Shown piece after piece: positions 9,694 through 21,768 of a stretch of 36,156 bases of DNA (positions are counted from its first letter, which is position 1; every line of letters starts with the position of its first letter). A model generated the notes under the pieces. That model saw nothing but the letters and a program-made list of their open reading frames with translations, ran no database searches and had not been told where the DNA came from. Source of the stretch: Nanobdellota archaeon (GTDB taxonomy: Archaea > Nanobdellota > Nanobdellia > Woesearchaeales > GCA-2686295); NCBI GenBank assembly GCA_018817005.1, contig JAHIUF010000087.1, positions 1 to 36,156 of the forward strand, read 5' to 3'. The position numbers and the translations under genes were made by a program.

Positions 9694-11007
9694 ATGACAA
9701 TTGAAATAATACCTGTAGGCGGATATCGAGAAGTAGGAAAGAATTGTACTGCAATAAAAGTTGATGATGAAGTTGTTCTTCTAGACTTAGGTCTTCATAT
9801 GGAAAAATATATTAAATATACTGATTCAGAAGACATAGTTGACTTGTCGCCCGCAAGTCTCATTGAAATAGGTGCGGTTCCAGACATAACAATACTTGAA
9901 GGCTTAAAAAAACAAGTTAAAGCTATTTGTGTAAGCCACGCACACTTAGACCATGTTGGAGCAATACCTTTTTTAGGAAATATGTTTAACTGCGACATAC
10001 ACGCAACACCCTTTACAATTGAAGTATTAAAAGCAATAATCAGAGATGAAAAGATTTCTTTTAAAAACAATCTTATAAAACACGAATCGAACTCAAAATT
10101 TAAAGTTTCAAAAAATATTGAAATAGAATTTATCAGCGCAACACATTCAACACCACAAACAGTTATGATTGCAGTACACACAAAATATGGAACTATAATT
10201 TATGCAAATGATTTCAAGCTTGATAATAATCCTGTTCTTGGAGAAAAAACTAATTTTAAACGTCTAAAATCAATAAAAGCAAAAGCGGTTATAATGGACT
10301 CATTATACGCTTCAAAACATGCAAAGACTCAATCTGAAGGAATAGCAAAAGAAATGTTAAAAGATGTTTTATTAGGTGTAAATAATCAAGGGAAAAATAT
10401 TTTTATAACAACATTTTCAAGTCATATAGCAAGAATAAAAACAATAATAGAACTTGGAAAACTTCTTAATAGAAAAATTGTTTTTTTAGGAAGGTCTCTT
10501 TCTAAATATAGTGAAGCTGCAGAAGCAGCAGGTATTGCTAAATTCTCAAAAGATGTAAACATTGTAAAATATAGTAGTAAAGTAAAAAACTATTTGCAAA
10601 CTATAAAACATTCTGAAAAATATTTGTTTGTAGTTACAGGACATCAAGGAGAACCAAAAGCTGTTCTTTCAAAAATTGTTAATAAAGGTTATTTTAAACT
10701 AAAACCAGGAGATCAAGTAATATTTTCATGCCAGATAATACCTGTTCCAACAAGTTTTGAAAACAGAGAAAAACTGGAAGCATCACTAAGACAAAAACAT
10801 GTAAGAATATTTACTGACGTGCATGTTTCAGGACACGCAGCAAGAGAAGATCATAGAGACTTTTTAGAGCTCTTAAAACCAGAACATATTATTCCAACAC
10901 ACAGTGAATTAGAAAAAATGCAATGTGTAAAAGAACTTGCAGGTGAAATAGGATTTAACAAGAAAAACGTACATCTTCTTTCAAATGGAGAAATCTTAAA
11001 ACTTTAA
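9694..11007 (+). CDS. rnj: Archaeal ribonuclease J (beta-CASP metallo-beta-lactamase)
   Basis: The 437-residue product is a beta-CASP nuclease: motif II HAHLDH at 82-87, later metal ligands around ATHSTP (about 150) and the D of YANDFKLD, then the beta-CASP insert with TTFSSHIARI, SGHA and the final HSELEKM. Archaeal RNase J is a 5'-3' exoribonuclease in RNA decay and maturation. Length is normal for the archaeal type. TATA box TTTATATAAG at 9666-9675 is only 24 nt from the ATG, with no SD, so the message is leaderless. It starts 45 nt after the tRNA gene and precedes PCNA by 67 nt. Confidence 0.93.
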   Translation: MTIEIIPVGGYREVGKNCTAIKVDDEVVLLDLGLHMEKYIKYTDSEDIVDLSPASLIEIGAVPDITILEGLKKQVKAICVSHAHLDHVGAIPFLGNMFNCDIHATPFTIEVLKAIIRDEKISFKNNLIKHESNSKFKVSKNIEIEFISATHSTPQTVMIAVHTKYGTIIYANDFKLDNNPVLGEKTNFKRLKSIKAKAVIMDSLYASKHAKTQSEGIAKEMLKDVLLGVNNQGKNIFITTFSSHIARIKTIIELGKLLNRKIVFLGRSLSKYSEAAEAAGIAKFSKDVNIVKYSSKVKNYLQTIKHSEKYLFVVTGHQGEPKAVLSKIVNKGYFKLKPGDQVIFSCQIIPVPTSFENREKLEASLRQKHVRIFTDVHVSGHAAREDHRDFLELLKPEHIIPTHSELEKMQCVKELAGEIGFNKKNVHLLSNGEILKL

Positions 11008-11074
11008 AGTTTTAAACAAAAACTATTTAAACCACTCTTTATTTACAAAAAATGAAGCTAAAGGGGGAAAAAGA

Positions 11075-11812
11075 ATGAAACTTACTCTTACAGAACCAAA
11101 ATTTTTAAAAGATAGCATAAGCATAATATCTGATCTTGTTACAGAAGCAAGGTTTAGATTTACACCCGATGCAATTGAACTTGTTGCTATGGATCCTGCA
11201 AATGTTGCAATGGTTATATTTAAACTACTAAGCAGTGCATTTGCAGAATATAATGTGAAAGAAGACATACACCTAGCAATAAACATGAATGATTTTAAAC
11301 AAGTCTTAAGGAGAGCAAAATCAAATGATGCAGTAACTTTAGAAACTGAAGATAATAAGTTTAAAATTACTTTCAAGAGCAACACAATAAGAACTTTCTA
11401 TTTGCCAATAATTGATGTTGATGAAAGTGAACAAAAAATACCTGATTTATCATTTAAAGCAACAATAACAACAACTGCTGCAATCATAAATGAAGCAATA
11501 GAAGATGCAGATATTGTCAGCGAAAGCGTAACCTTTGACATTGACAATCAAGTATTGACTATTAGCGCAACTGGTGATTTAAGTAAAGCAACCATTAGAA
11601 TTGATGCTGACAATGATACAAAAATAATATCTGATGAAAAAGTTAAGTCAAAATTTTCAATTGAATACTTAAAAAAAATGATACAAGGAAGTAAAATAAG
11701 TGAAAAAGTTTTACTTCAAGTAAGTCAAGACTACCCTTTAAAACTTGAATACAAAGTTTTAAACAAAGTACAATTGGCGTTCATCTTAGCACCAAGAGTG
11801 GACAACGATTAA
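11075..11812 (+). CDS. pcn: DNA polymerase sliding clamp (PCNA)
   Basis: The 245-residue product is an archaeal PCNA. It has the paired clamp domains, the RFRFTPDAIELVAMDPANVAMV segment of domain 1, the interdomain connector around IPDLSFKA, and the C-terminal LAPRV that contacts PIP-box partners. It encircles DNA and tethers polymerase, ligase and Fen1. A TATA-like TATTTAAA near 11030-11037 and an SD GGGGG about 8 nt before the ATG give a short leader of roughly 17 nt. A terminator follows immediately. Confidence 0.95.
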   Translation: MKLTLTEPKFLKDSISIISDLVTEARFRFTPDAIELVAMDPANVAMVIFKLLSSAFAEYNVKEDIHLAINMNDFKQVLRRAKSNDAVTLETEDNKFKITFKSNTIRTFYLPIIDVDESEQKIPDLSFKATITTTAAIINEAIEDADIVSESVTFDIDNQVLTISATGDLSKATIRIDADNDTKIISDEKVKSKFSIEYLKKMIQGSKISEKVLLQVSQDYPLKLEYKVLNKVQLAFILAPRVDND

Positions 11813-11815
11813 TAA

Positions 11816-11860
11816 CCCCACCTGGATAAAGTAATGCCAGTATGAATTTGGGGCTTTTTT
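11816..11860 (+). terminator. Transcription terminator after PCNA
   Basis: A two-tier stem, CCCCA/TGGGG (11816-11820 / 11849-11853) enclosing CTGG/CCAG (11822-11825 / 11837-11840), is followed directly by a T6 tract at 11855-11860. Confidence 0.65.
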
Positions 11861-12012
11861 CTTTGTTTTAGTCGATAAATACTAACATATTTACTTTCTA
11901 ATTCTCCCATTAACCTATAGCAAAACGTTTAGACTTTATAAAGACCTTGTTCTCTACTCTAGTTTTCACGCTAAATTTACATTCTGGCTGATGTTGTCAT
12001 AAAATAATATAA
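11861..12012. other. Intergenic junction between host DNA and the element
   Basis: No gene is seen. The stretch holds two TATA-like sites (CTTTATAAAG near 11935-11944 and AATATAAAG near 12005-12013), and the codon pattern changes after it. This is where I place the left limit of the inserted element. I found no tRNA end or convincing target duplication. Confidence 0.4.
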
Positions 12013-12102
12013 AGAAAAAAACATGATTCAATTATTAAGCAAGAAATTGGAATCAAAAATTTTGTTGAAATTAATGAAAAAATAGACAAATATCAAAGAT
12101 AG
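12013..12102 (+). pseudogene. Truncated ORF remnant at the left end of the element
   Basis: A frame of 29 codons, open between two stops, reads like the end of a real protein (IIKQEIGIKNFVEINEKIDKYQR). It has no start codon. Its TAG stop overlaps the SD AGGTG of the next gene, as in an operon. It looks like the 3' stub of a gene whose front was lost when the left end of the element was deleted. The stretch is short, so chance cannot be excluded. Confidence 0.35.
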
Positions 12103-12107
12103 GTGTT

Positions 12108-12289
12108 ATGATGCAAGGTCGGAAGGTTAAGGTTTATTTTGATGATGGAGAAAAGGTTTCTGGAGAGAGGGTTCTATCTCTTCGGAAGATCAATACTCTA
12201 TTACGCTTGATTATAAGTATATTATTCCTCGAGGTAGGATTGTTCGGATGGAGGTTTTTGAGGATGGATGTGTCAGGACCGAGAGCTAG
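12108..12289 (+). pseudogene. Small beta-rich protein of the replication module, frameshifted
   Basis: The frame from ATG 12108 (SD AGGTG at 12101-12105) reads MMQGRKVKVYFDDGEKVSGERV. It then loses sense near 12173, while the -1 frame continues as plausible protein (SISSEDQYSITLDYKYIIPR, ending RMEVFEDGCVRTES) to TAG 12287-12289. One missing T in GGTTCTATC would reconcile the two into about 60 residues of alternating strands. The fold could be Sm-like or another small barrel; I cannot name it. A single ORF spanning both this gene and the primase is an artefact of the shift. Confidence 0.5.
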
Positions 12290-12767
12290 TTTTCTCATTA
12301 AATTATGTAATAAATATGAGAATTTTAAAGTAGCGTTTGCCTTTAAGAAAGGTGATAAAATTGTTTTTTCCGAACATAAACAAGTTTTGGAATTATGGAC
12401 TTCAGATGAAGGGATGAAGTTTCTTGAGAAAGCTAATAATAGACGGATCTTCCCAGCTGAAATTGTTCTTGATATGGATGATGATGTTTCAGAATTAAGA
12501 TTAAATTCTATTTGTGATGATCTTGAAAAATATGGATTTAATTACAAAGCCTATTTTACTGGTTCAAAAGGTTATCACATTCATGTATTTGACGATGAAT
12601 TAACTAAGTATTCTGTTCAAAGCAGACGTAAGATTAAACACTTTCTTATTGCTAAATATAATTGTGATACTCAGAAAGCTTCTGAAAATACTTTGATTGC
12701 TATTGAAGATGTGCCTCATTGAAAGACTGGAAATTTAAAGAAATTAGTGAGGAAAAACAATGAGTGA
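12264..12767 (+). pseudogene. Archaeo-eukaryotic primase (PriS-like), interrupted by TGA
   Basis: Starting at ATG 12264 (GGAGG at 12250-12254), the product carries AEP catalytic motifs: LDMDDD with D70 and D72 (metal-binding DxD), and FTGSKGYHIHVF at about 98-109 with the conserved S-x-x-G-x-H. The frame stops at TGA 12720-12722. It continues sensibly as KTGNLKKLVRKNNE to a second TGA at 12765-12767, which overlaps the ATG of the helicase gene by the usual operon distance. So about 15 residues are cut off, in a region where related primases have an HxKTG-type segment. A CGA-to-TGA transition would explain it. This would be the element's replication primase. Confidence 0.6.
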
Positions 12768-13680
12768 AGCATTAAAGAAAGTAATCTTTGAGTTGGATAA
12801 TCCTGATGTTATTTTGGAATACAAAAGGGTTAATGCAAAGATTGATCCTCTTTTTTATCAGATTGAATTATTAAAGGAGATTCATGGTGAGCTTGACAAA
12901 AGACATAAGTTAGATCATAAAGAGAAGATGGCTGTTTTTGTTATTGCAGTTTCTTCTTATTTAAAAGATGCTAAGAATCATTGTAGTTGTGCATTAAAAG
13001 GTAATAGTTCTGCAGGTAAAGATAGTTGTGTTGATACAGTATTATCTCATATTCCTAAAGATGAATGGATTAAAGTAACTAGAGCAACAACAGCGTCTCT
13101 TGAAGATGATGTTATGGATAAACGTATTGTTGCTTTTTCTGAGATTAATAAGAATCGTGAACGTGGTGCTAATGCTGAAATTGTTGAAACATTTAAACAA
13201 ATGGCAGAAGGAGGAACATCTACATTAAAGAAAGATCCAAAAACAGGATTTAAAACTGCCATCAGAACAAATCAAGAGCAAAAAACATTAATTTACGGAA
13301 CTACTGAAACTGAATGTGATGATGAACTTGAAACAAGATATGTCGTTGTTCCCATCAAAGGTTTTTGGGAAAAGAATAAAATTGTTATTTTTGATACTTT
13401 AAGAAAAGCAAGAGATATTCAACATCATATTAATAGAAATAAACTGGAAGATTCTTGGATTTCAATATCTCTTTCTCTGCTTGATAGAGATCTTTTTGTA
13501 ATTGTTCCTTTTACTGAAATTTTTGAAAAAGAGATTAATGGTAAAGAAACTAAGGGAAAAAGCCCAGAAAGAACAGTAATGGCTGTGCTTATTAGAGATA
13601 ATAAGAATGTGTTTAAGCGAATGGGTGATGGAGTGTTTGGGCTTACTAAACTCGATGAATTGTATAAACAAAATACTTAA
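12760..13680 (+). CDS. SF3/AAA+-like replicative helicase-ATPase of the element
   Basis: The 306-residue protein has a Walker A variant GNSSAGKD (81-88, Asp in place of Ser/Thr), a Walker B-like RIVAFSEIN (E128), a sensor-like TLIYGTTE (177-183) and an arginine-finger-like ETRY (191-194). The C-terminal 45 residues (RTVMAVLIRDNKNVFKRMGD) look like a winged-helix/HARE-type domain. Together with the primase upstream (8-nt overlap) it forms a minimal replication module as in archaeal plasmids and viruses. It appears intact and converges with the nucleotidyltransferase gene (4-nt overlap). Confidence 0.7.
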   Translation: MSEALKKVIFELDNPDVILEYKRVNAKIDPLFYQIELLKEIHGELDKRHKLDHKEKMAVFVIAVSSYLKDAKNHCSCALKGNSSAGKDSCVDTVLSHIPKDEWIKVTRATTASLEDDVMDKRIVAFSEINKNRERGANAEIVETFKQMAEGGTSTLKKDPKTGFKTAIRTNQEQKTLIYGTTETECDDELETRYVVVPIKGFWEKNKIVIFDTLRKARDIQHHINRNKLEDSWISISLSLLDRDLFVIVPFTEIFEKEINGKETKGKSPERTVMAVLIRDNKNVFKRMGDGVFGLTKLDELYKQNT

Positions 13681-14336
13681 TTTTGACTTTGTTTTTTTTC
13701 AAGATCTTCAAAGTATTTGTTTCTTAAACTGTCAAATTCATTCATGATAGGAATTTCTAATCCTTTGTCTTCAAGAAGGTCTAATCTTTCTCCAACCCAT
13801 GTAATCCAAACATCTTGTTTACTTTGTTTAATCTGATTTTGAAGTTCTTTTAGTATTATTTTCCAATCAATTCCTGGAACAGCAATACTTATGCAATCAT
13901 CAAGATCACCATCTCTTTCAGTCATTGTTTTAAACAAGAGTATATCTTCATTAGAGCAGTGTGAGACTCTTAAGTTTTCTAAGTCTTGTATTATTTCAGC
14001 TCGTTGTTTCATATCTTCTGTTAGTGAGAATTTTCCACAAACTTCTTTGTAGAATACATCAATCCGAAAATCCTCTTTTTGAAAAATTTGATTAAGGTTC
14101 ATATGTTCATATTCTTTGCCAGGTATTTGAGGTTTAAAATCTAATTTTTCTAAGGCTTTTTGAAATTCCATAAATTCTGCTTTTGAGTCAACTACTAAAT
14201 CTATGTCTTTTGTTCCACCTTTCAGATCTCGTCTTAGAAGAACTGCTCCTCCAATAACATAAAGATTGATCTTTTTTTCAATTATTTGATTGATTTCTTT
14301 GAAGAATTCTTCAATTTGGTCATAGTTTGTAATCAT
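13677..14336 (-). CDS. Nucleotidyltransferase, putative toxin of an AbiE-like pair
   Basis: The 219-residue protein has the polymerase-beta-type NTase signature: GGAVLLRRDLKGGTKDIDL at 29-47 with the metal-binding DID and a third carboxylate in FRIDVF (D93). The C-terminal half is helical (about 130-219). The family resembles DUF6036/AbiEii-type NTases that act as toxins by modifying tRNA or protein. It lies 4 nt after the stop of a winged-helix protein, the typical antitoxin-first order. GAGGTG within the end of that gene serves as SD. The protein looks intact. Confidence 0.72.
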   Translation of the reverse strand: MITNYDQIEEFFKEINQIIEKKINLYVIGGAVLLRRDLKGGTKDIDLVVDSKAEFMEFQKALEKLDFKPQIPGKEYEHMNLNQIFQKEDFRIDVFYKEVCGKFSLTEDMKQRAEIIQDLENLRVSHCSNEDILLFKTMTERDGDLDDCISIAVPGIDWKIILKELQNQIKQSKQDVWITWVGERLDLLEDKGLEIPIMNEFDSLRNKYFEDLEKKQSQN

Positions 14337-14340
14337 TTAT

Positions 14341-15204
14341 TTACACCTCAATTCCATAAACTTCTGCTCTATCTTTTATTTCTTGATAGCTTGGATATCC
14401 TTTGACTGTTCCTTTTGCAAGAACTGCACTAATGTTCATAAGTATTTCGTGTTTAATTTTGAATTCATTTTTGAATTTTGCATAAAATAATGCAATAAAT
14501 ATTAAATTTCGAATGTCTTTATCTTTTTCAACTATGTAAAGTGAATGTCTTAATACTTCTTCTTTAGTTAATGATTTTTTAGGTAAGTAATAATAATTTT
14601 TTACCGTAAGTAATTTGATGCCATATTTCTCATAAGCTGAGAATGCTGTTTTTTCTGCATCTGTTTCTTCTTTTGATGCAAATATTATCTCGTTATTTTT
14701 TTTATAATAAATAGTTGAACTTGCTGGAATTCTTACATCTGTCCTTGATTCATATTTATTTAGTTCCATTAAGAAATCAATTAATTTAGCCCATATTTTG
14801 TCATTTAATCTATAAGATGTTTGTGTCTTTCTTACTATGCTTCGTTTTCTTGCTTCTCCTAATTTAGTATATATTGTTGTTTTTTTAAATCCTGTTTCTT
14901 GAGATATTTCTTCAATTGTTGATACTTTCAATAATGCTGTGAGAATGGGGATTCCTGACTCTGAGATTGCAGGAGCTAAGTTAGGGTATGTCGTTAATAC
15001 TTCTAAAAATAATTTGATATGTAATGCTTCTTTTCCCTCTAGAGTGCCATTTATTCGTTTAATAAAGCCTTTCTCGGTTAGATTATTAACAATGACATAT
15101 ATTCTTCTTTCTTTGACATTTAGAGCTAAAGCTAATGATTTAATGGATTTATTGCCTTTAGCTACTTGTTCTAGTAGTAATATATCTGTCTTTGATAATT
15201 GCAT
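14341..15204 (-). CDS. Winged-helix regulator, putative antitoxin
   Basis: The 287-residue protein starts with a winged helix (SKTDILLLEQVAKGNKSIKS; about 1-60) and carries a second one at about 95-145 (EEISQETGFKKTTIYTKLGE), followed by an unassigned alpha/beta C-terminal part (YYKKNNEIIFASKEETDAEK). Double-HTH proteins upstream of NTases are typical of AbiEi-like antitoxins and of archaeal HTH/NTase pairs, where the regulator represses its own promoter. An inverted repeat flanks the TATA box immediately upstream, supporting autoregulation. Its start is divergent from the Csa3-like gene. Confidence 0.7.
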   Translation of the reverse strand: MQLSKTDILLLEQVAKGNKSIKSLALALNVKERRIYVIVNNLTEKGFIKRINGTLEGKEALHIKLFLEVLTTYPNLAPAISESGIPILTALLKVSTIEEISQETGFKKTTIYTKLGEARKRSIVRKTQTSYRLNDKIWAKLIDFLMELNKYESRTDVRIPASSTIYYKKNNEIIFASKEETDAEKTAFSAYEKYGIKLLTVKNYYYLPKKSLTKEEVLRHSLYIVEKDKDIRNLIFIALFYAKFKNEFKIKHEILMNISAVLAKGTVKGYPSYQEIKDRAEVYGIEV

Positions 15205-15205
15205 A

Positions 15206-15327
15206 TTTCCGTTAAAAGAACACTAATATATAAATGTTTGCACTTTAAACGGAAAGTTTATCATTATTTAGTGAGATAAATTCGATAATTTAGTAAACTT
15301 TATATATTTCAGATGTTTTTCAGATGT
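15206..15327. promoter_or_regulatory. Divergent operator/promoter region between the antitoxin and the Csa3-like gene
   Basis: Three repeat sets occupy 122 nt. IR1: TTTCCGTTAAAAG (15206-15218) and CTTTAAACGGAAA (15243-15255), 12 of 13 positions matching, flank the TATA box (about 15224-15234) of the minus-strand antitoxin gene. IR2: AAAGTTTA (15253-15260) and TAAACTTT (15294-15301) lie 33 nt apart, the second arm overlapping the TATA box (TTTATATA, 15299-15306) of the plus-strand gene. DR: TTTCAGATGT occurs at 15307-15316 and again at 15318-15327, directly before the ATG. Confidence 0.6.
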
Positions 15328-15328
15328 A

Positions 15329-15928
15329 ATGACAAAGGTACTAATAGCTACAATCTATGTATTTGAACCTATTATAGCATCATCCACCAAAGTAGGAGCA
15401 GATAGGCTGATCTTACTTATTGATAAAGAACCAGATGAAAAACAGCAAAAATCGTTAGATATTATTAAGCAATCCTTGGGAACAGTTCTTGAAATCAAGA
15501 CAGTAGCAACTGATATTTATGATATTGTTGATGTAGCAAAAGAGACTGTTAAAATTATTGATCTCTTGTCAGATAAAGACGAAATTTATGTAGATATAAC
15601 CGCCGGTCGAAAGACTAAAGCATTAGGATTGTTATTTGGAGCATATGCAAGAATAAACAGAATCAAGAGAATCATGTACGTAAAAGAAGAAGATAAATCA
15701 ATTGTAAGTTTACCTCGTCTTTCTTACTCACTTAGTCCAGGACAACACAAAATTGTTAATTATCTAGTAAATCATGAAGTTACTTCTATGTCCAGATTTG
15801 CAACTAAAATAGAACTTAGTCAGGCAATGCTATACAAACATATTCGTGAATTAAAAGAAATGGATATTCTTGAAGAGACAAAAGAAGGATTAAAAGTTAC
15901 AGATTATGGTAGGATAGTGGTGCTTTAA
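15329..15928 (+). CDS. csa3: Csa3-like CARF-domain transcription regulator
   Basis: The 199-residue protein has an N-terminal Rossmann-like CARF domain (1-128) with the family's ligand-loop signature in VDITAGRKTKALGLLFGAYA (about 88-107). A winged helix follows (135-195, SPGQHKIVNYLVNHEVTSMS). Csa3 proteins regulate cas genes and bind cyclic oligonucleotides. The ATG lies 26 nt after a TATA box with no SD, so the message is leaderless. One nucleotide separates it from the next gene. There is no CRISPR array or other cas gene in the window, so the role may be regulation of the attached membrane protein and nuclease. Confidence 0.72.
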   Translation: MTKVLIATIYVFEPIIASSTKVGADRLILLIDKEPDEKQQKSLDIIKQSLGTVLEIKTVATDIYDIVDVAKETVKIIDLLSDKDEIYVDITAGRKTKALGLLFGAYARINRIKRIMYVKEEDKSIVSLPRLSYSLSPGQHKIVNYLVNHEVTSMSRFATKIELSQAMLYKHIRELKEMDILEETKEGLKVTDYGRIVVL

Positions 15929-15929
15929 G

Positions 15930-16208
15930 ATGTTTGACGTAAAAGTAAGTGTGGGTTTAATCATTGCCGATATAATCCTTTATTTAATGGGAATATTATT
16001 TTGGTTTAGTCAAAGCTTCGCACACGCATTAGGCGTAATTGGATTTTTCCCAAGATTATTAGCAGGTATTGTAGCAATAGTAATTGGTATTGTGATAACG
16101 ATTGTGGTGGTGAAAGCTTCAAGACTTGCTATTCTCACTCAAGGATTTCAACTTTTGAACAATGTAGATACAAGTATAAACTACAATATATTGATAAGGT
16201 CAAAGTAG
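15930..16208 (+). CDS. Two-TM membrane protein between the CARF regulator and the nuclease
   Basis: The 92-residue frame has two hydrophobic helices, about residues 7-28 (VGLIIADIILYLMGILFWF) and 39-63 (LAGIVAIVIGIVITIVVVK), and little else. The last 30 or so residues are translated from DNA that in the -1 frame encodes the conserved N-terminus of the nuclease, so the natural C-terminus probably ends earlier or a frameshift has occurred near 16110-16118. It could be a membrane effector or anchor. I recognise no family. Confidence 0.55.
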   Translation: MFDVKVSVGLIIADIILYLMGILFWFSQSFAHALGVIGFFPRLLAGIVAIVIGIVITIVVVKASRLAILTQGFQLLNNVDTSINYNILIRSK

Positions 16209-17233
16209 ATGTTCCTACAACTGTTGAATGCTTTATGGGAGATCTTGTTCATCGTAGTTTGGAGAAGTTGTATAATGACTTAAAGTTTGAGAAACAGAAT
16301 AGTAAAAAAGATGTAATCTCTTTTTTTAATGATCTTTGGTCTAAAGAGTGGACAGATGAAATCCTGATTGTTAAAGAAGAACTTACTTCTGAGAATTATA
16401 GACTAATGGGTGAGAAGTATATCTCTATGTATTATGATCATTATCAACCTTTTAATCAAATGACTGTCCTAGGTTTAGAGACACAAGACAGAATGACTTT
16501 ATCTGATGGTAACCAGTATCATGTTAGAATTGATAAGTTGGCTTGTGTTGGAGATACTTATTATGTTTGTGATTATAAAACTAATTCTCGAATGAAAGAT
16601 CAAGAAGAAGCTGATTCTGATAGACAACTTGCAATGTATTCTATTTGGGTAAAAGATAAATTCAAAGATGCTAAAAAAGTTGTGTTATTATGGCATATGT
16701 TGGCTTTCGATAAAGAAGCGACTTCTTCAAGAAGTGAGGAAGAGTTATCTAAATTGCACGATGAAGTTGTTACCCAAATTAAAGAAATTGAATCCTGCAA
16801 TGATTATCCAACTAACGTAACTGCACTTTGCAATTATTGTGTATTCAAATCAATATGTCCATCGTTTAAGCATGAAGCAGAGATTGAATTCAAAAGTGCA
16901 GAAGAATTTACTGAGGACTTTGGAGTCAAATTAGTGAATGAATATTCTGAACTGGATAATTTAGAAAAAGAAAGCAAGAAGAGAAAAGAAGAAATAAAAT
17001 CTAAATTAATTGAATTTGCTAAACAAAAAGAAATCGATGTAGTATATGGTTCTAATAAGAAAGCTTCAGTAAAGCCATACGACAAAGTTGTTTATCCTGA
17101 AGATAAAGTAGACTTTATAAAACTCATAAAAGATAAAGGATTATATGATGAAATCAGTATGATCTCCTATCCAAGATTAAACTCACTTATACTAAAAAAA
17201 CAAATTGATCAGGAAGTAATTGACAAGACTTGA
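16118..17233 (+). CDS. Fe-S PD-(D/E)XK nuclease (RecB/Cas4-like); start codon missing
   Basis: The frame from 16118 encodes 371 residues with the full RecB-family set: YSHSRISTFEQC near the N-terminus, GDLVHRSLE (H45), RIDK (D139), CDYKT (D152, K154) and RQLAMY (Q170, Y174). Four Cys (C16 and C238, C241, C247) are placed as in Cas4/AddB iron-sulfur nucleases. The first ATG in frame is 16235, which would drop C16 and the STFEQC motif. At 16118-16120, exactly where the SD GGTGA would place a start codon, the sequence is TTC. So the gene either lost its start, has a frameshift with the membrane-protein gene, or begins in an unusual way. Confidence 0.7.
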   Translation, partial: FKTCYSHSRISTFEQCRYKYKLQYIDKVKVDVPTTVECFMGDLVHRSLEKLYNDLKFEKQNSKKDVISFFNDLWSKEWTDEILIVKEELTSENYRLMGEKYISMYYDHYQPFNQMTVLGLETQDRMTLSDGNQYHVRIDKLACVGDTYYVCDYKTNSRMKDQEEADSDRQLAMYSIWVKDKFKDAKKVVLLWHMLAFDKEATSSRSEEELSKLHDEVVTQIKEIESCNDYPTNVTALCNYCVFKSICPSFKHEAEIEFKSAEEFTEDFGVKLVNEYSELDNLEKESKKRKEEIKSKLIEFAKQKEIDVVYGSNKKASVKPYDKVVYPEDKVDFIKLIKDKGLYDEISMISYPRLNSLILKKQIDQEVIDKT

Positions 17234-17918
17234 TAACTTCATCTTCAATCTGATATCTAATCTTTAAAACATCAACAGGATAAATCTCATTAGACTGAAT
17301 AATATCAAGATACGCAGTTCTTATCTCTTTAGGCATAAGATTAATGACTTTTAACCTAACTGCATCTTGATCTCACCCATACACATAACCTGGCTTTCTA
17401 CCATGAATCATCTGCTTAGCAGGAATAGTAAACTCACTTCTATTGATCTTACCAGTTGTAAAAAGCTCTCTAATACATTGATATGTATAATCCCAATTAC
17501 CATAATCTTCCAAAGAAGGATAATCCTTGAGCTGATAGAATACTTCTGCAAGAGTAAGACCTGCCTTATTGTTTTGAAATATCTCAAAAATATTACTTTT
17601 AATTCCAACAAAAAAATCATCAGTATCAACACCCTTGTTGAAAGATTCAATCTTTCTTCTAATTTCTTCTTCATTAAGACCATAAACAAAAGATCTAGAA
17701 CACATCCGTTTCTTTGATTGAACCTTTTCTGTACTTTTAACAATAAGTTCTTTTAAGAGAAGCTGTTTTAAATAGCTAGAAACATGATGTTTTTGAAGTG
17801 AAGTATTCTTAAATCCCTCTGCAATCTCTGAAGAAATCACTGCTCTCTTTCGAACTATATATTTATAGATCTTATATGTGAAAGATCCAGTGTTAAACAT
17901 TATGTTTTTATCTGCCAT
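17187..17918 (-). pseudogene. Winged-helix DNA-binding protein interrupted by an in-frame TGA
   Basis: The frame from ATG 17918 encodes 181 residues: a winged helix at 13-65 (TYKIYKYIVRKRAVISSEIA) and a second helical region, up to KPGYVYG. After TGA at 17373-17375 it continues in frame for 61 codons of natural sequence (VINLMPKEIRTAYLDIIQSN; VDVLKIRYQIEDEVIK) to TAA at 17187-17189. About a quarter of the protein is thus cut off. The extension overlaps the end of the convergent nuclease gene by 47 nt. SD-like AGG precedes the ATG and a palindrome sits at the promoter. It was probably the element's repressor or maintenance protein. Confidence 0.6.
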
Positions 17919-17923
17919 TTATC

Positions 17924-17946
17924 CTACCTATTACAGTAATTGGTAG
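17924..17946. promoter_or_regulatory. 23-bp palindromic operator upstream of the winged-helix gene
   Basis: CTACCTATTAC (17924-17934) and GTAATTGGTAG (17936-17946) form a dyad with 10 of 11 pairs around A17935. A TATA-like CTATTTATCC lies at about 17957-17966, so the dyad is centred on the predicted transcript start. This fits self-repression by the winged-helix protein. Confidence 0.55.
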
Positions 17947-18019
17947 AATTAGATTGGATAAATAGTTAGTTCGCCTAATTAGTCATATTTACTTCCCATT
18001 TCGATATATTTTTATACAT

Positions 18020-18038
18020 TAGTCGTTTCTAACGACTA
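18020..18038. repeat. Perfect 8-bp inverted repeat near the right limit of the element
   Basis: TAGTCGTT (18020-18027) and AACGACTA (18031-18038) flank a 3-nt centre. It lies 16 nt beyond the pepF stop, so it may end the pepF message, mark the element boundary, or be another operator. Confidence 0.45.
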
Positions 18039-18053
18039 TAGGGTTGAATATGA

Positions 18054-19811
18054 TTAAGAATTCAATTTTTTTAGCTCTTCTATTTCTTCTTTTATTATAT
18101 CAAATCCTCCCTGCCAAAACTCTTCTTTGGAAGGATTAATTCCAACCGTTGCAAGAAGATCAGCAGGAGATTTACTGCCACCAGCAGAAAGAATATTTAT
18201 ATATTTATCAAGAAAAGGTTTTCCTTCTTTTTTATAAATTGCATAAAGTGAAAGAACTGAAAGATTACCCCAAGAATAGGCATAACAATAAAAAGGTGAA
18301 TTATGAATGTGAGGAACATAATTCCATTCATGTTTAAAAATATCAGGCATTTTCATATTACCAAATTGTTCTTTTAAAAGTAGTTTATATTCTTCATCCA
18401 ATTTTTCTTTTGTTGCCCCGCCAGCGATTTTTTCATGAGCAAATTTTTCGAACAAAACAAAATAACTTTGCCTAGTAATTGAAGCGAATTGGTTATCTAA
18501 AAGATCAACTAATATCTCGGATTTCTCGTCATTATCTTTAGAATCCAAAAGAAGTCTTGAAGAAAGAATCATCTCACCAAAAATAGACGCTGTTTCTGCA
18601 ATAGGAAGAGGTATATTACATAATAGATTAACTTGTTTTTGTGCAAAAACATCATGTATACCATGACCAAATTCATGCATCATAGTAAAAAGGCCTCTTA
18701 CTTGATCTGTATGATTTAAAAAAATATAAGGAGTTAATTTGTTATCAACACCAAAACAAAAAGCCCCGCCTTTTTTGCAGGTTTTAGGATGAGAATGAAT
18801 GTGCTTTTCATCAACAATCTTCTTTGCTGCTTCATAAAACCGACTGTCAAACTTTTTATAAGTGTCCAAAACTAATTTTAAACTAGAATTAAAATCATAT
18901 TTTTTCTTTGATTTAATATTTAAAGGCGCGTATAAATGATATCTTGAAAAATCATATTTCGCGCCTAATTTTTTATTTAAATCGTGTTTAAATTTGAAAT
19001 ATTCAGAAAATATTTCTGAGTTTTTTCTTACAACTTTTAAAAGTGTTTCTACAACTGTATCAGGAATATCATTACCCACATTTCGAACAGAAATAGGTTT
19101 TTTGTAACCTCTAATTTTTAAAGATTCATTATCCCAATTAAGAACAATGTTCTTATAAATCTCATTTAAAACAGTGCTGTTCTCTTTGAATTTAGAAAGC
19201 AACAGTTCATATGCCTTTTTTCTTAAAGCTGATTTTTCTGAATGAACATATTTTAAAAGATCATCTTGAGTTATGTCTTTTTCACCGTTTATACTAAATT
19301 CAAAAGAGCTAACTATGGAATCATAAATAGATGAAAAAGCACCACCACCAGTTACTGATTTTATTGAAAGAATTTTTTCTATTTTTTCTGACATCGTGTG
19401 TTTTTTCAACTTTCTTATTTCTTGTAGATAGTATTTATATTCAGAAAGTGTTTCTGAATTAAAATATTTTTTTGCATCTTTTTTACTTAGCTTCATAAAC
19501 CACAAAGAAAAAAACATAGTTTCATTTTCTAATTCTGAAAAAAGCTGGCTTAGATAAGTCATTTTAGCAAGAGCATTAGAATCTTTTGTATTTTCACAAA
19601 ATTTCATATAGTAATATGCATCAACTCTGTCAGACCATCTATCAATATATTCTCCTAAAACAACTATTTCTTTCAAAATATTTGGAGAAAGATAAGGAGT
19701 TAGTTTTTTTCTATATGACTTGAAAATCTCAACTTTTTCTTTAATGTCTTCTATTATTTCATCAGGCTTTTTGCCACCAAGAATATCCTCTAAATTCCAA
19801 ATTTCTGTCAT
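18054..19811 (-). CDS. pepF: Oligoendopeptidase F (M3B family metallopeptidase)
   Basis: The 585-residue protein has the zinc motif HEFGH (near 378-382, within MMHEFGHGIHDVFA), followed by the downstream Glu region ETASIFGEMIL and a C-terminal YAYSWGNLSVLSLY segment, as in PepF/M3B peptidases. These cytoplasmic enzymes cleave peptides of about 6-20 residues. Length is close to the usual 590-600. No signal peptide is present. The ATG is about 30 nt from a TATA-like ATTTAAAC (about 19835-19848), nearly leaderless. The gene is transcribed toward the integrated element. Confidence 0.92.
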   Translation of the reverse strand: MTEIWNLEDILGGKKPDEIIEDIKEKVEIFKSYRKKLTPYLSPNILKEIVVLGEYIDRWSDRVDAYYYMKFCENTKDSNALAKMTYLSQLFSELENETMFFSLWFMKLSKKDAKKYFNSETLSEYKYYLQEIRKLKKHTMSEKIEKILSIKSVTGGGAFSSIYDSIVSSFEFSINGEKDITQDDLLKYVHSEKSALRKKAYELLLSKFKENSTVLNEIYKNIVLNWDNESLKIRGYKKPISVRNVGNDIPDTVVETLLKVVRKNSEIFSEYFKFKHDLNKKLGAKYDFSRYHLYAPLNIKSKKKYDFNSSLKLVLDTYKKFDSRFYEAAKKIVDEKHIHSHPKTCKKGGAFCFGVDNKLTPYIFLNHTDQVRGLFTMMHEFGHGIHDVFAQKQVNLLCNIPLPIAETASIFGEMILSSRLLLDSKDNDEKSEILVDLLDNQFASITRQSYFVLFEKFAHEKIAGGATKEKLDEEYKLLLKEQFGNMKMPDIFKHEWNYVPHIHNSPFYCYAYSWGNLSVLSLYAIYKKEGKPFLDKYINILSAGGSKSPADLLATVGINPSKEEFWQGGFDIIKEEIEELKKLNS

Positions 19812-19877
19812 TTTAAAATTCCGTAATTTTATTTTGTTTAAATAAATTATCTAAAACAAAAGAATAAAATAAATAAA

Positions 19878-21332
19878 TCATCCTTTTATGTTTCCAATTG
19901 GCTTGAATGCAGCAATGCTTTTTGATATCCTTGAAACAACTAATGCTTCCACAACATCAGAAATATTTTTATAAGCTATTCCTGCCTCTTCAGCAAGACT
20001 TGACATTGACGCAGACTTCACATAAATTCCTTTCTTTTCCATCTCTTTTTGAAGATCTTCACCTCGAATTAGATGTTTTGCCTTAGATCGAGACATTGTC
20101 CTTCCAGAACCATGAGCTGTACTTCCAAAAGTCTCTTTCATTGCAGTTTCTGTTCCAACCAATAAATGTGAACCTGTTTCCATACTCCCACCTAAAATTA
20201 CTGGTTGACCTGTTTCTTGATATTTAAAGGGTAATTCTTTCTGACCAGGACCAAATGCCCTTGTTGAGCCTTTTCTATGTACAAGAACCTCTTTTTTAAC
20301 ACCTGAAACAATGTGTTTTTCAAATTTTGCAATGTTGTGTGCAACATCATATACTAGTTTTAATTCCATATCTTCTGGATCTTTGTTGAATACTTTTGAA
20401 AATGTTTCTCTAATGCTATGTAAAATCATTTGTCTATTCACAAAAGCAGTATTTGCAGCACAAGCCATAGCTTTGTAATAGTCACTTCCTTCTCTACTTT
20501 TAATGGGTGCACAAGCAAGTTCCCTATCAGGAACACTCATACCATAGTCTTTCATTTTTTTATTAAATCTCATAAGATAATCGGTTCCTATTTGATGACC
20601 AAAACCCCTGCTTCCACAATGAACCATTATTGCTATTTGATTATTTCCAACTATTCCAAATTTTTTCGCGATTTTTAAATCAAAAATATCTTCGTTGGAA
20701 ACTGTTTGAATTTCCAAATAATGATTTCCACTCCCAAGAGTTCCCATTTGCCTTATGCCTCTAGAAGTGGCTTTTTCACTTACAGTCGAAGGATCTGCTC
20801 CTTTTATACATCCCTCATCTTCAATATTTTTTATATCATCTTTTGTTGCGTAACCATTTTCCAAACACCACTTAGCGCCATTAGTCATTATATCTTTAAA
20901 TTGAGAAAGATTTATTCTCAAAGAGCTTTTACAACCAACACCTGTTGGAACATTTCCAAATAAAAGATTTATTAGTTCTTTTAATTTAGGTCTTACTTCA
21001 TCAACAGAGAGATTTGTTGTCATAAGTCTCATACCACAATTTATATCAAATCCGATTCCTCCGGGGCTTATGACTCCTGAGTCAAGATCAAATGCTGCAA
21101 CACCACCAATAGGAAAACCATATCCCCAATGACCATCAGGCATACAAAAAGCATGATTTTGTATTCCGGGAAGACAAGCAACATTTGAAATCTGAGAAAA
21201 AACACCTTCATCCATTGATTTTATTAGTTTCTCAGTAGCATAAATTCTTGCAGGAACCCTCATGCCTTTCTTAAAAGATGTTGGAAGTTCCCAAACTGCA
21301 TCAGATATTTTTTTTAATTCATTAAAATTCAT
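19878..21332 (-). CDS. rtcB: tRNA-splicing ligase RtcB
   Basis: The 484-residue protein carries the RtcB metal-binding and GMP-binding motifs: GIGFDINCGMRLM near residue 95 (the metal-binding Cys), MVHCGSRGFGHQIG in the middle, and STAHGSGRTMSR with the guanylated His near 404. RtcB joins 2',3'-cyclic-phosphate and 5'-OH ends of tRNA exons using GTP and Mn2+. The SD AGGTG lies 6 nt before the ATG, 10 nt after archease stops, so the two form an operon. The substrate is likely the split tRNA-Leu(UAA) transcript at 9476 among others. Confidence 0.96.
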   Translation of the reverse strand: MNFNELKKISDAVWELPTSFKKGMRVPARIYATEKLIKSMDEGVFSQISNVACLPGIQNHAFCMPDGHWGYGFPIGGVAAFDLDSGVISPGGIGFDINCGMRLMTTNLSVDEVRPKLKELINLLFGNVPTGVGCKSSLRINLSQFKDIMTNGAKWCLENGYATKDDIKNIEDEGCIKGADPSTVSEKATSRGIRQMGTLGSGNHYLEIQTVSNEDIFDLKIAKKFGIVGNNQIAIMVHCGSRGFGHQIGTDYLMRFNKKMKDYGMSVPDRELACAPIKSREGSDYYKAMACAANTAFVNRQMILHSIRETFSKVFNKDPEDMELKLVYDVAHNIAKFEKHIVSGVKKEVLVHRKGSTRAFGPGQKELPFKYQETGQPVILGGSMETGSHLLVGTETAMKETFGSTAHGSGRTMSRSKAKHLIRGEDLQKEMEKKGIYVKSASMSSLAEEAGIAYKNISDVVEALVVSRISKSIAAFKPIGNIKG

Positions 21333-21342
21333 ATTTCACACC

Positions 21343-21768
21343 TCAAACATCAAGTATGACTGTAACTTTATAGCCATTCTTTGTTTTTTTTATTTTAAAT
21401 AAATGCATCGTAACTGCTTTTATATCTGCTCTTAATTTGATACTATCAACAATTTTTTGTCCTAAAAATTTGGCCTTTAAAAAATATTTATTTTTCTTTT
21501 TTTCAATTTTTATTTTGAAATCAAAGAAAACAAGTCCATCAACATCCTTAAGAAAAACTATTTCAGATAGTAAATCATAAAGCAAATACTCTAAATCATC
21601 TGATTCTAAAACAATATTTTTTTTTATAACTAGTTTAATAGTTTTTGTATCAGCAATAGAATCGGCTGTTGCAAAACAAGCATTCTCGAATAATTGTTCA
21701 TAAGTTTTACCCTTAGTTTCAAAAGCTATGTCTGCTGTTGCGATATCTTCTAAAAGTTTATATCTCAT
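21343..21768 (-). CDS. Archease (RtcB activator)
   Basis: The 141-residue protein matches archease: N-terminal MRYKLLEDIATADIAFETKG with the metal-binding Asp, the central DLEYLLYDLLSEIVFLKDVDG and the C-terminal RADIKAVTMHLFKI. Archease promotes guanylation and multiple turnover of RtcB, encoded next. The ATG is 26 nt downstream of a TATA-like TTTATAAA (about 21789-21799) with no SD, so the operon message is leaderless. The stop is TGA. Confidence 0.93.
   Translation of the reverse strand: MRYKLLEDIATADIAFETKGKTYEQLFENACFATADSIADTKTIKLVIKKNIVLESDDLEYLLYDLLSEIVFLKDVDGLVFFDFKIKIEKKKNKYFLKAKFLGQKIVDSIKLRADIKAVTMHLFKIKKTKNGYKVTVILDV

Follow-up and report, generated by a model that had tools for sequence, protein, structure and literature searches.

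The CARF operon and its surroundings

The window, by which we mean the whole stretch of DNA analysed (36,156 nucleotides), makes up the entire contig C42 of a Woesearchaeales draft genome of 1.66 Mb in 91 contigs, whose nearest named relatives are two Woesearchaeota MAGs, SURF_58 (L001) and DPANNHV_H2.bin.75 (L002). On its forward strand, at 15329-17233, the window harbours three real genes, encoding a CARF-wHTH regulator, a two-helix membrane protein and a Cas4-like Fe-S nuclease.

The first gene of the operon (15329..15928, plus strand) encodes a protein of 199 aa that belongs to the CARF3/CasR group. The PADLOC profile CARF3--CARF (PDLC01849) covers it from end to end (residues 1-199, E 2.3e-71), and the Pfam family HFX_2341_N matches it above the cut-off (E 1.4e-11). 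An earlier note, made from the sequence alone, had described a Csa3-like CARF-wHTH protein and proposed a profile search as a check; the CARF-wHTH part stood, and the likeness to Csa3 proved weak. Csa3_N reached 20.7 bits against a cut-off of 27 and the PADLOC model of Csa3 an E value of 3.5e-4 only, and judged by these scores the protein is closer to CasR/CARF3 than to Csa3. The Pfam match to Card1 falls below the cut-off, and a Pfam scan detected no WYL domain. The AlphaFold model is modest (pLDDT 60, pTM 0.61); searched with Foldseek against the PDB, its 18 best matches were all CARF proteins (Can2, Csa3, Csm6 and ring nucleases, E 2.8e-6 to 1.4e-3), including Csa3 with cA4, which indicates a CARF fold at the modest confidence of the model. 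The CARF motif ITxGRKTxAxG is conserved, with K95 invariant among 18 relatives, and in comparison with the CARF gene of locus L082 dN is far under dS.

The second ORF (15930-16208, plus strand) begins 1 nt past the CARF stop codon, as the earlier note had stated. It is a genuine gene, because homologues of 62-65 aa with 41-53% identity exist in three genomes (G101, G314 and G051). Its natural extent is about 64 codons (15930..16124), which means that the last ~28 residues of the annotated ORF are 5′ DNA of the nuclease gene read in another frame; residues 64-92 match L086/G103. The membrane gene has no CARF gene alongside except in the window. Two of the three homologues stand before restriction-modification genes, namely a type II methyltransferase and restriction endonuclease in G101, and a IIG enzyme and specificity subunit in G314.

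The third gene (16121..17233, plus strand) encodes the nuclease, with PDDEXK_1 as its best Pfam match (E 1.3e-25). The PD-(D/E)XK catalytic residues and the four Fe-S cysteines, which characterise Cas4-like nucleases of the RecB family, are all intact in the alignment, and every invariant column is kept; the C-terminus is ~20 aa shorter than in the relatives. Relatives among solved structures were not found. Both the Cas4/RecB-like identity and the damaged start seen in the earlier note proved correct. Homology begins with YSHSR at 16130, well 5′ of the ATG at 16235, and the nucleases of the relatives open with ATG-x-x-YSHS, the ATG falling precisely on position 16121; the window has AAG there. 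The true start codon, 16121-16123, is lost in the window, and a one-base difference in the stop/start overlap accounts at once for this loss and for the excess length of the membrane ORF. The in-frame ATG at 16235 was rejected as the true start, since the 35 codons ahead of it show a pN of 0.07 and a pS of 0.96 relative to L043, and since its use would remove the first cluster cysteine. Such strong constraint implies that the start was lost very recently, or that the loss is a consensus error. A programmed frameshift fusing membrane protein and nuclease was also rejected, as inspection by eye revealed no slippery heptamer in the overlap, and as in the relatives the two genes are separate and the nuclease start coincides exactly with the stop/start overlap.

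No CRISPR-like array was found in the 11.8-18.1 kb section of the window, and neither Cas1 nor Cas10 was found anywhere in its genome, which agrees with the absence of cas genes and arrays reported in the earlier note. The regulator lacks the linkage to cas genes or CRISPR leaders typical of Csa3, and the nuclease lacks the adjacent cas1/cas2 genes of a Cas4 of CRISPR adaptation.

The operon lies in a variable hotspot (9694-21768) between RNase J-like/PCNA genes (9694-11812) and RtcB/archease genes (19878-21768). The same flanks enclose differing contents in four related genomes (G002, G003, G004 and G006; L143, L145-L147). The position in a variable chromosomal hotspot supports the earlier reading in part; viral carriage was not seen, as one scan of IMG/VR detected no relative. 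On the minus strand, positions 13677-15204 encode an AbiE-like pair in which a wHTH protein of 287 aa precedes a DUF6036 nucleotidyltransferase of 219 aa, with 58-61% identity to the pair of G003 (L143). The pair was rejected as a part of the system, because G003 possesses it at the same hotspot in the absence of the CARF operon. Positions 12108-13680 encode a short protein of 204 aa, possibly truncated, with a weak match to the primase small subunit, and a protein of 306 aa without a confident family; these genes are possibly the remnant of an integrated element. At the hotspot of G003 (contig C55) a single ORF of 919 aa (L143:7860-10616) contains Cas4-like, RNase H-like and IS66 transposase domains, and is an unusual fusion or a chimera.

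The promoter palindrome

CARF promoters have in common a palindrome of 40 bp, TTTCTAtTAtTTAgTAtAAATTTaTAcTAAaTAaTAGAAA, followed immediately by a TATA box. The likelihood of the palindrome model was 446, compared with 144-146 for shuffled sequence and 163-172 for other promoters at the same loci. Scores of at least 15 were reached by 30 of the 51 CARF promoters and by one of 211 control promoters. At a score of at least 17, the 764,595 bp searched contain 34 sites, 32 of them at CARF promoters. The remaining two precede the CARF gene of L097 (G271:C52), whose protein carries an N-terminal extension of ~180 aa; the predicted operator in this position supports the fusion as a real gene.

About 20 of the 51 CARF promoters, including that of the window, score low with the main model. 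For the window promoter the main-clade model was discarded (7.6 in the joint fit, and outranked by another site in the leave-out scan), and only a sub-clade variant fits. This diverged form is common to the window, L082, L086 and L087, lies directly 5′ of the TATA box, and is defined by these four promoters. In the window the predicted operator extends over 15253..15301 (plus strand), with the core TTAGTGAGATAAATTCGATAATTTAGTAA at 15268-15296 and predicted outer inverted arms at 15253-15260 (AAAGTTTA) and 15294-15301 (TAAACTTT). The TATA box TTTATATA, read from the sequence at 15299..15306 (plus strand), is situated ~23-30 bp before the CARF ATG, and its position relative to the operator is the same in L082, L086, L087 and ~30 other CARF promoters. 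Placed there, the box suggests that the CARF transcript is leaderless. Specific and symmetric conservation at the own promoter is the trace expected of an autoregulatory dimer, and we infer that the CARF protein binds the predicted operator, although the palindrome may partly mirror common descent.

CARF-led operons in related genomes

A protein search revealed CARF homologues in 15 of 99 relatives, and a profile search found 53 CARF loci in 43 of the 353 genomes of the order; seven further genomes of the same class, outside the order, were detected in a phylum-wide search. The neighbourhoods of all 53 loci were compared, 49 of which have downstream DNA. In 47 of the 49, the gene 3′ of CARF is co-directional, mostly overlapping or within ~26 bp, and the gene 5′ of CARF is usually divergent.

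The cargo downstream differs from locus to locus, and over all loci includes restriction genes of types I, II, IIG and IV, DISARM-like helicases and MNT/HEPN genes. A nuclease is accompanied by a DrmD-like helicase in L043, by a PbeA-like helicase in L001/L082, and by GmrSD and an Eco57I IIG enzyme in L032. Other operons carry GmrSD and DUF2779/Cas4-like genes (L027), Schlafen AlbA, PDDEXK, Bro-N and a nuclease (L029), ORF6N, Bro-N and UvrD-PDDEXK (L025), a PLD-SNF2 helicase and Eco57I (L036), DrmE and DrmA (L041), HsdM and HsdS (L042), YhcG (L079), or NTase/HEPN genes (L105). The genome of the window possesses a second CARF operon (L040, G000:C63) with AlbA and a Schlafen helicase; its genes encode Bro-N, an apparently split Schlafen AlbA and a Schlafen group 3 helicase.

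Among the 109 proteins encoded by the first three downstream genes, the Pfam families found were Bro-N (12), PDDEXK_1 (9), DUF2779 (6), GmrSD (5), RhuM (4), Schlafen AlbA (4) and Cas4 (4). The 88 proteins encoded by the two genes upstream of CARF comprise AAA ATPases and otherwise mainly housekeeping families, with few defence families. A nuclease, helicase, methyltransferase, Schlafen or NTase/HEPN gene is present in 33 of the 49 operons, a count that rests partly on cluster propagation. With Bro-N, ORF6N and RhuM, which are only candidate defence genes, the count becomes 39, again partly by cluster propagation, and ten operons lack a recognisable defence gene.

Directly 5′ of CARF, ten loci (L026, L029, L033, L034, L039, L073, L075, L078, L093 and L096) encode a divergent AAA+ ATPase (cluster c3, 437-499 aa where complete), in most cases together with a partner of 160-180 aa. 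The two are possibly a second defence pair that uses the common promoter region. Two proteins encoded upstream of CARF match ThsB_TIR.

The cargo is exchanged between CARF operons. The CARF proteins of L082, L086 and L087 are 73-77% identical to that of the window and lead different cargo: a nuclease and a helicase in L082, Bro-N, a nuclease and type I restriction in L086, and RhuM in L087. Conversely, the nuclease closest to that of the window (72%) is found in L043, whose CARF protein is just 28% identical to the window CARF. The nuclease family occupies ~89 places in 82 of the 353 genomes. Twelve places are inside CARF operons other than that of the window, where the rough chance expectation for co-location is ~0.1 (53 loci x 10 kb in ~440 Mb); in four of the twelve (L043, L078, L082 and L102) the nuclease is the gene next to CARF, with its start intact. 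CARF, membrane protein and nuclease together were found in the window alone among the 353 genomes of the order. The recurrence of the three-gene set with intact nuclease starts, which the earlier note had named as support for a system, was thus observed for CARF and nuclease and not for the membrane gene. A fixed three-gene system, which the earlier note had considered as a possible sensor-effector trio, was rejected, because outside the window the membrane gene has no CARF neighbour. The exchanged neighbours of all three genes indicate interchangeable parts of a common pool.

Exchange of this kind could also mean that CARF is a fellow mobile passenger of defence islands, which stands beside the defence genes and does not regulate them. 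The PCNA-RtcB hotspot, with different content in each relative, and the second CARF operon of the same genome agree with such hitchhiking. However, hitchhiking predicts random order and strand, and CARF keeps the first position, the same strand and overlapping or nearly overlapping junctions in nearly all loci, with a promoter palindrome confined to CARF genes. We therefore consider hitchhiking unlikely, while it is the best of the alternatives.

Regulation, signal and relation to known systems

Computation on draft genomes established the CARF-wHTH identity of the protein, its leader position, the variable defence cargo, the specific promoter palindrome and the absence of Cas10. The explanation that we regard as probable is that CARF leads innate defence operons in Woesearchaeales and related DPANN archaea as a gene that responds to a ligand and regulates itself, and that the window holds a reduced copy of such an operon. 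The CARF product would be a dimeric, ligand-sensing transcription factor. By binding the palindrome that adjoins the BRE/TATA region at its own promoter, it would set the expression of its own gene and of the defence cargo that follows. At rest it would most likely be a repressor, holding the operon down. A nucleotide-type ligand arising on infection may bind the CARF domain and shift the wHTH pair, and the resulting weaker or altered grip on the operator would change transcription, so that the cargo is expressed in what may be an antiviral response. The cargo is exchangeable, and in the window it consists of the two-helix membrane protein and the Cas4-like nuclease. From its domains and promoter, CARF appears here to act on DNA as a regulator, with a conserved predicted operator in front of its own gene, rather than as an activator of effectors.

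In the window, the helicase or methyltransferase genes found downstream in the relatives are missing and the nuclease start is lost, for which reason the operon looks reduced and is probably decaying; the alternative is an assembly error in the base call of the start.

CARF domains are best known for reading the cyclic oligoadenylates made by Cas10. The Cas10 palm family, on which type III cyclic-oligoadenylate signalling depends, was detected above the cut-off in none of the 43 CARF genomes, with a single partial match below the threshold in G269. Therefore the ligand is not a Cas10 product, or it comes from elsewhere, and the cyclic-oligoadenylate circuit anticipated in the earlier note is not supported. 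Chances seem about even that these CARF factors command exchangeable DPANN defence operons independently of CRISPR and sense a nucleotide not made by Cas10, either a novel infection messenger or else a nucleotide or RNA fragment induced by a virus.

Slightly less credible than hitchhiking is an orphan CRISPR regulator, that is, a Csa3/CasR-type factor which formerly controlled cas genes and was left behind after the loss of CRISPR. CasR/CARF3 are indeed the closest profile models, and cas1 is kept in four of the CARF genomes; yet the other 39 of the 43 lack it, the family is conserved, if scattered, over the order, with an intact motif and dN well under dS, and it possesses a specific predicted operator and an operonic tie to non-CRISPR defence genes. 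Least probable of all is a stand-alone system in which CARF senses cyclic oligoadenylate and acts with membrane protein and nuclease as effectors: the CARF motif is intact, CARF and nuclease are operon partners in the twelve other loci and the membrane gene is real, but the trio was found in the window alone, CARF is fused to a wHTH domain with its own predicted operator instead of to an effector, the CARF genomes lack Cas10 above the cut-off, and the nuclease is also common without CARF (82 of 353 genomes).

As a leader gene of defence operons, CARF has its best analogue, in our reading, in BrxR. BrxR and CapW are WYL-domain regulators of bacterial defence islands that occur together with defence systems of widely differing kinds. 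The inverted repeats bound by BrxR lie close to the promoter of its own gene, and 48% of the BrxR homologues are beside known defence systems (PMC9122601, PMC9122588, PMC9122589). The CARF family likewise consists of wHTH regulators with a ligand domain beside diverse defence systems, and where BrxR represses its own operon through inverted repeats, it has a conserved palindrome at the promoter as a putative counterpart. It differs in that the sensor is CARF and not WYL, the promoter is archaeal, with a predicted operator adjoining the TATA box, and the hosts are DPANN archaea.

Among archaeal regulators, an 18-bp palindrome close to BRE/TATA has been associated with Csa3a (PMC8699464), and MM_0565 is a dimer and binds the promoter of its own gene (PMC7465815). 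Csa3a/Csa3b and MM_0565 are CARF-wHTH proteins with an identical domain order. However, they are linked to CRISPR, whereas the family described here is without this linkage, leads non-CRISPR operons, scores weakly with the Csa3 models and has a different predicted operator of 40 bp.

In bacteria, RtcR-like CARF regulators head CoCoNuT/restriction superoperons (PMC11090510; a link to restriction-modification also in PMC4012209). They resemble the present family as CARF transcription regulators encoded first in operons that combine several systems for DNA restriction, but they are sigma-54 activators of CARF-AAA+-HTH architecture, in contrast to an archaeal CARF-wHTH protein of 200 aa with a putative autoregulatory palindrome. 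Regulation of defence by CARF/WYL factors was predicted in 2014 (PMC4012209). Solo-Cas4 nucleases are found near restriction genes in several DPANN genomes (PMC5704561); similarly, the nuclease described here is a Cas4-like Fe-S protein without CRISPR and near restriction genes, with the difference that it has a CARF leader with a predicted operator, and that its family is longer (~390 aa) and matches PDDEXK_1 best in Pfam. As far as the literature searched shows, a CRISPR-free CARF-wHTH leader family with a predicted operator is new for Woesearchaeales, though part of the gene-neighbourhood link may already have been noted in the 2020 CARF classification paper.

The operon of the window would be a reduced example of the CARF-led defence operons. 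With a compact archaeal CARF regulator in dozens of Cas10-free genomes, CARF sensing without type III CRISPR becomes directly testable. The CARF leader and its palindrome may serve as a marker to find unknown defence genes of DPANN archaea, and the leader family would represent an archaeal counterpart to the bacterial BrxR/CapW regulators.
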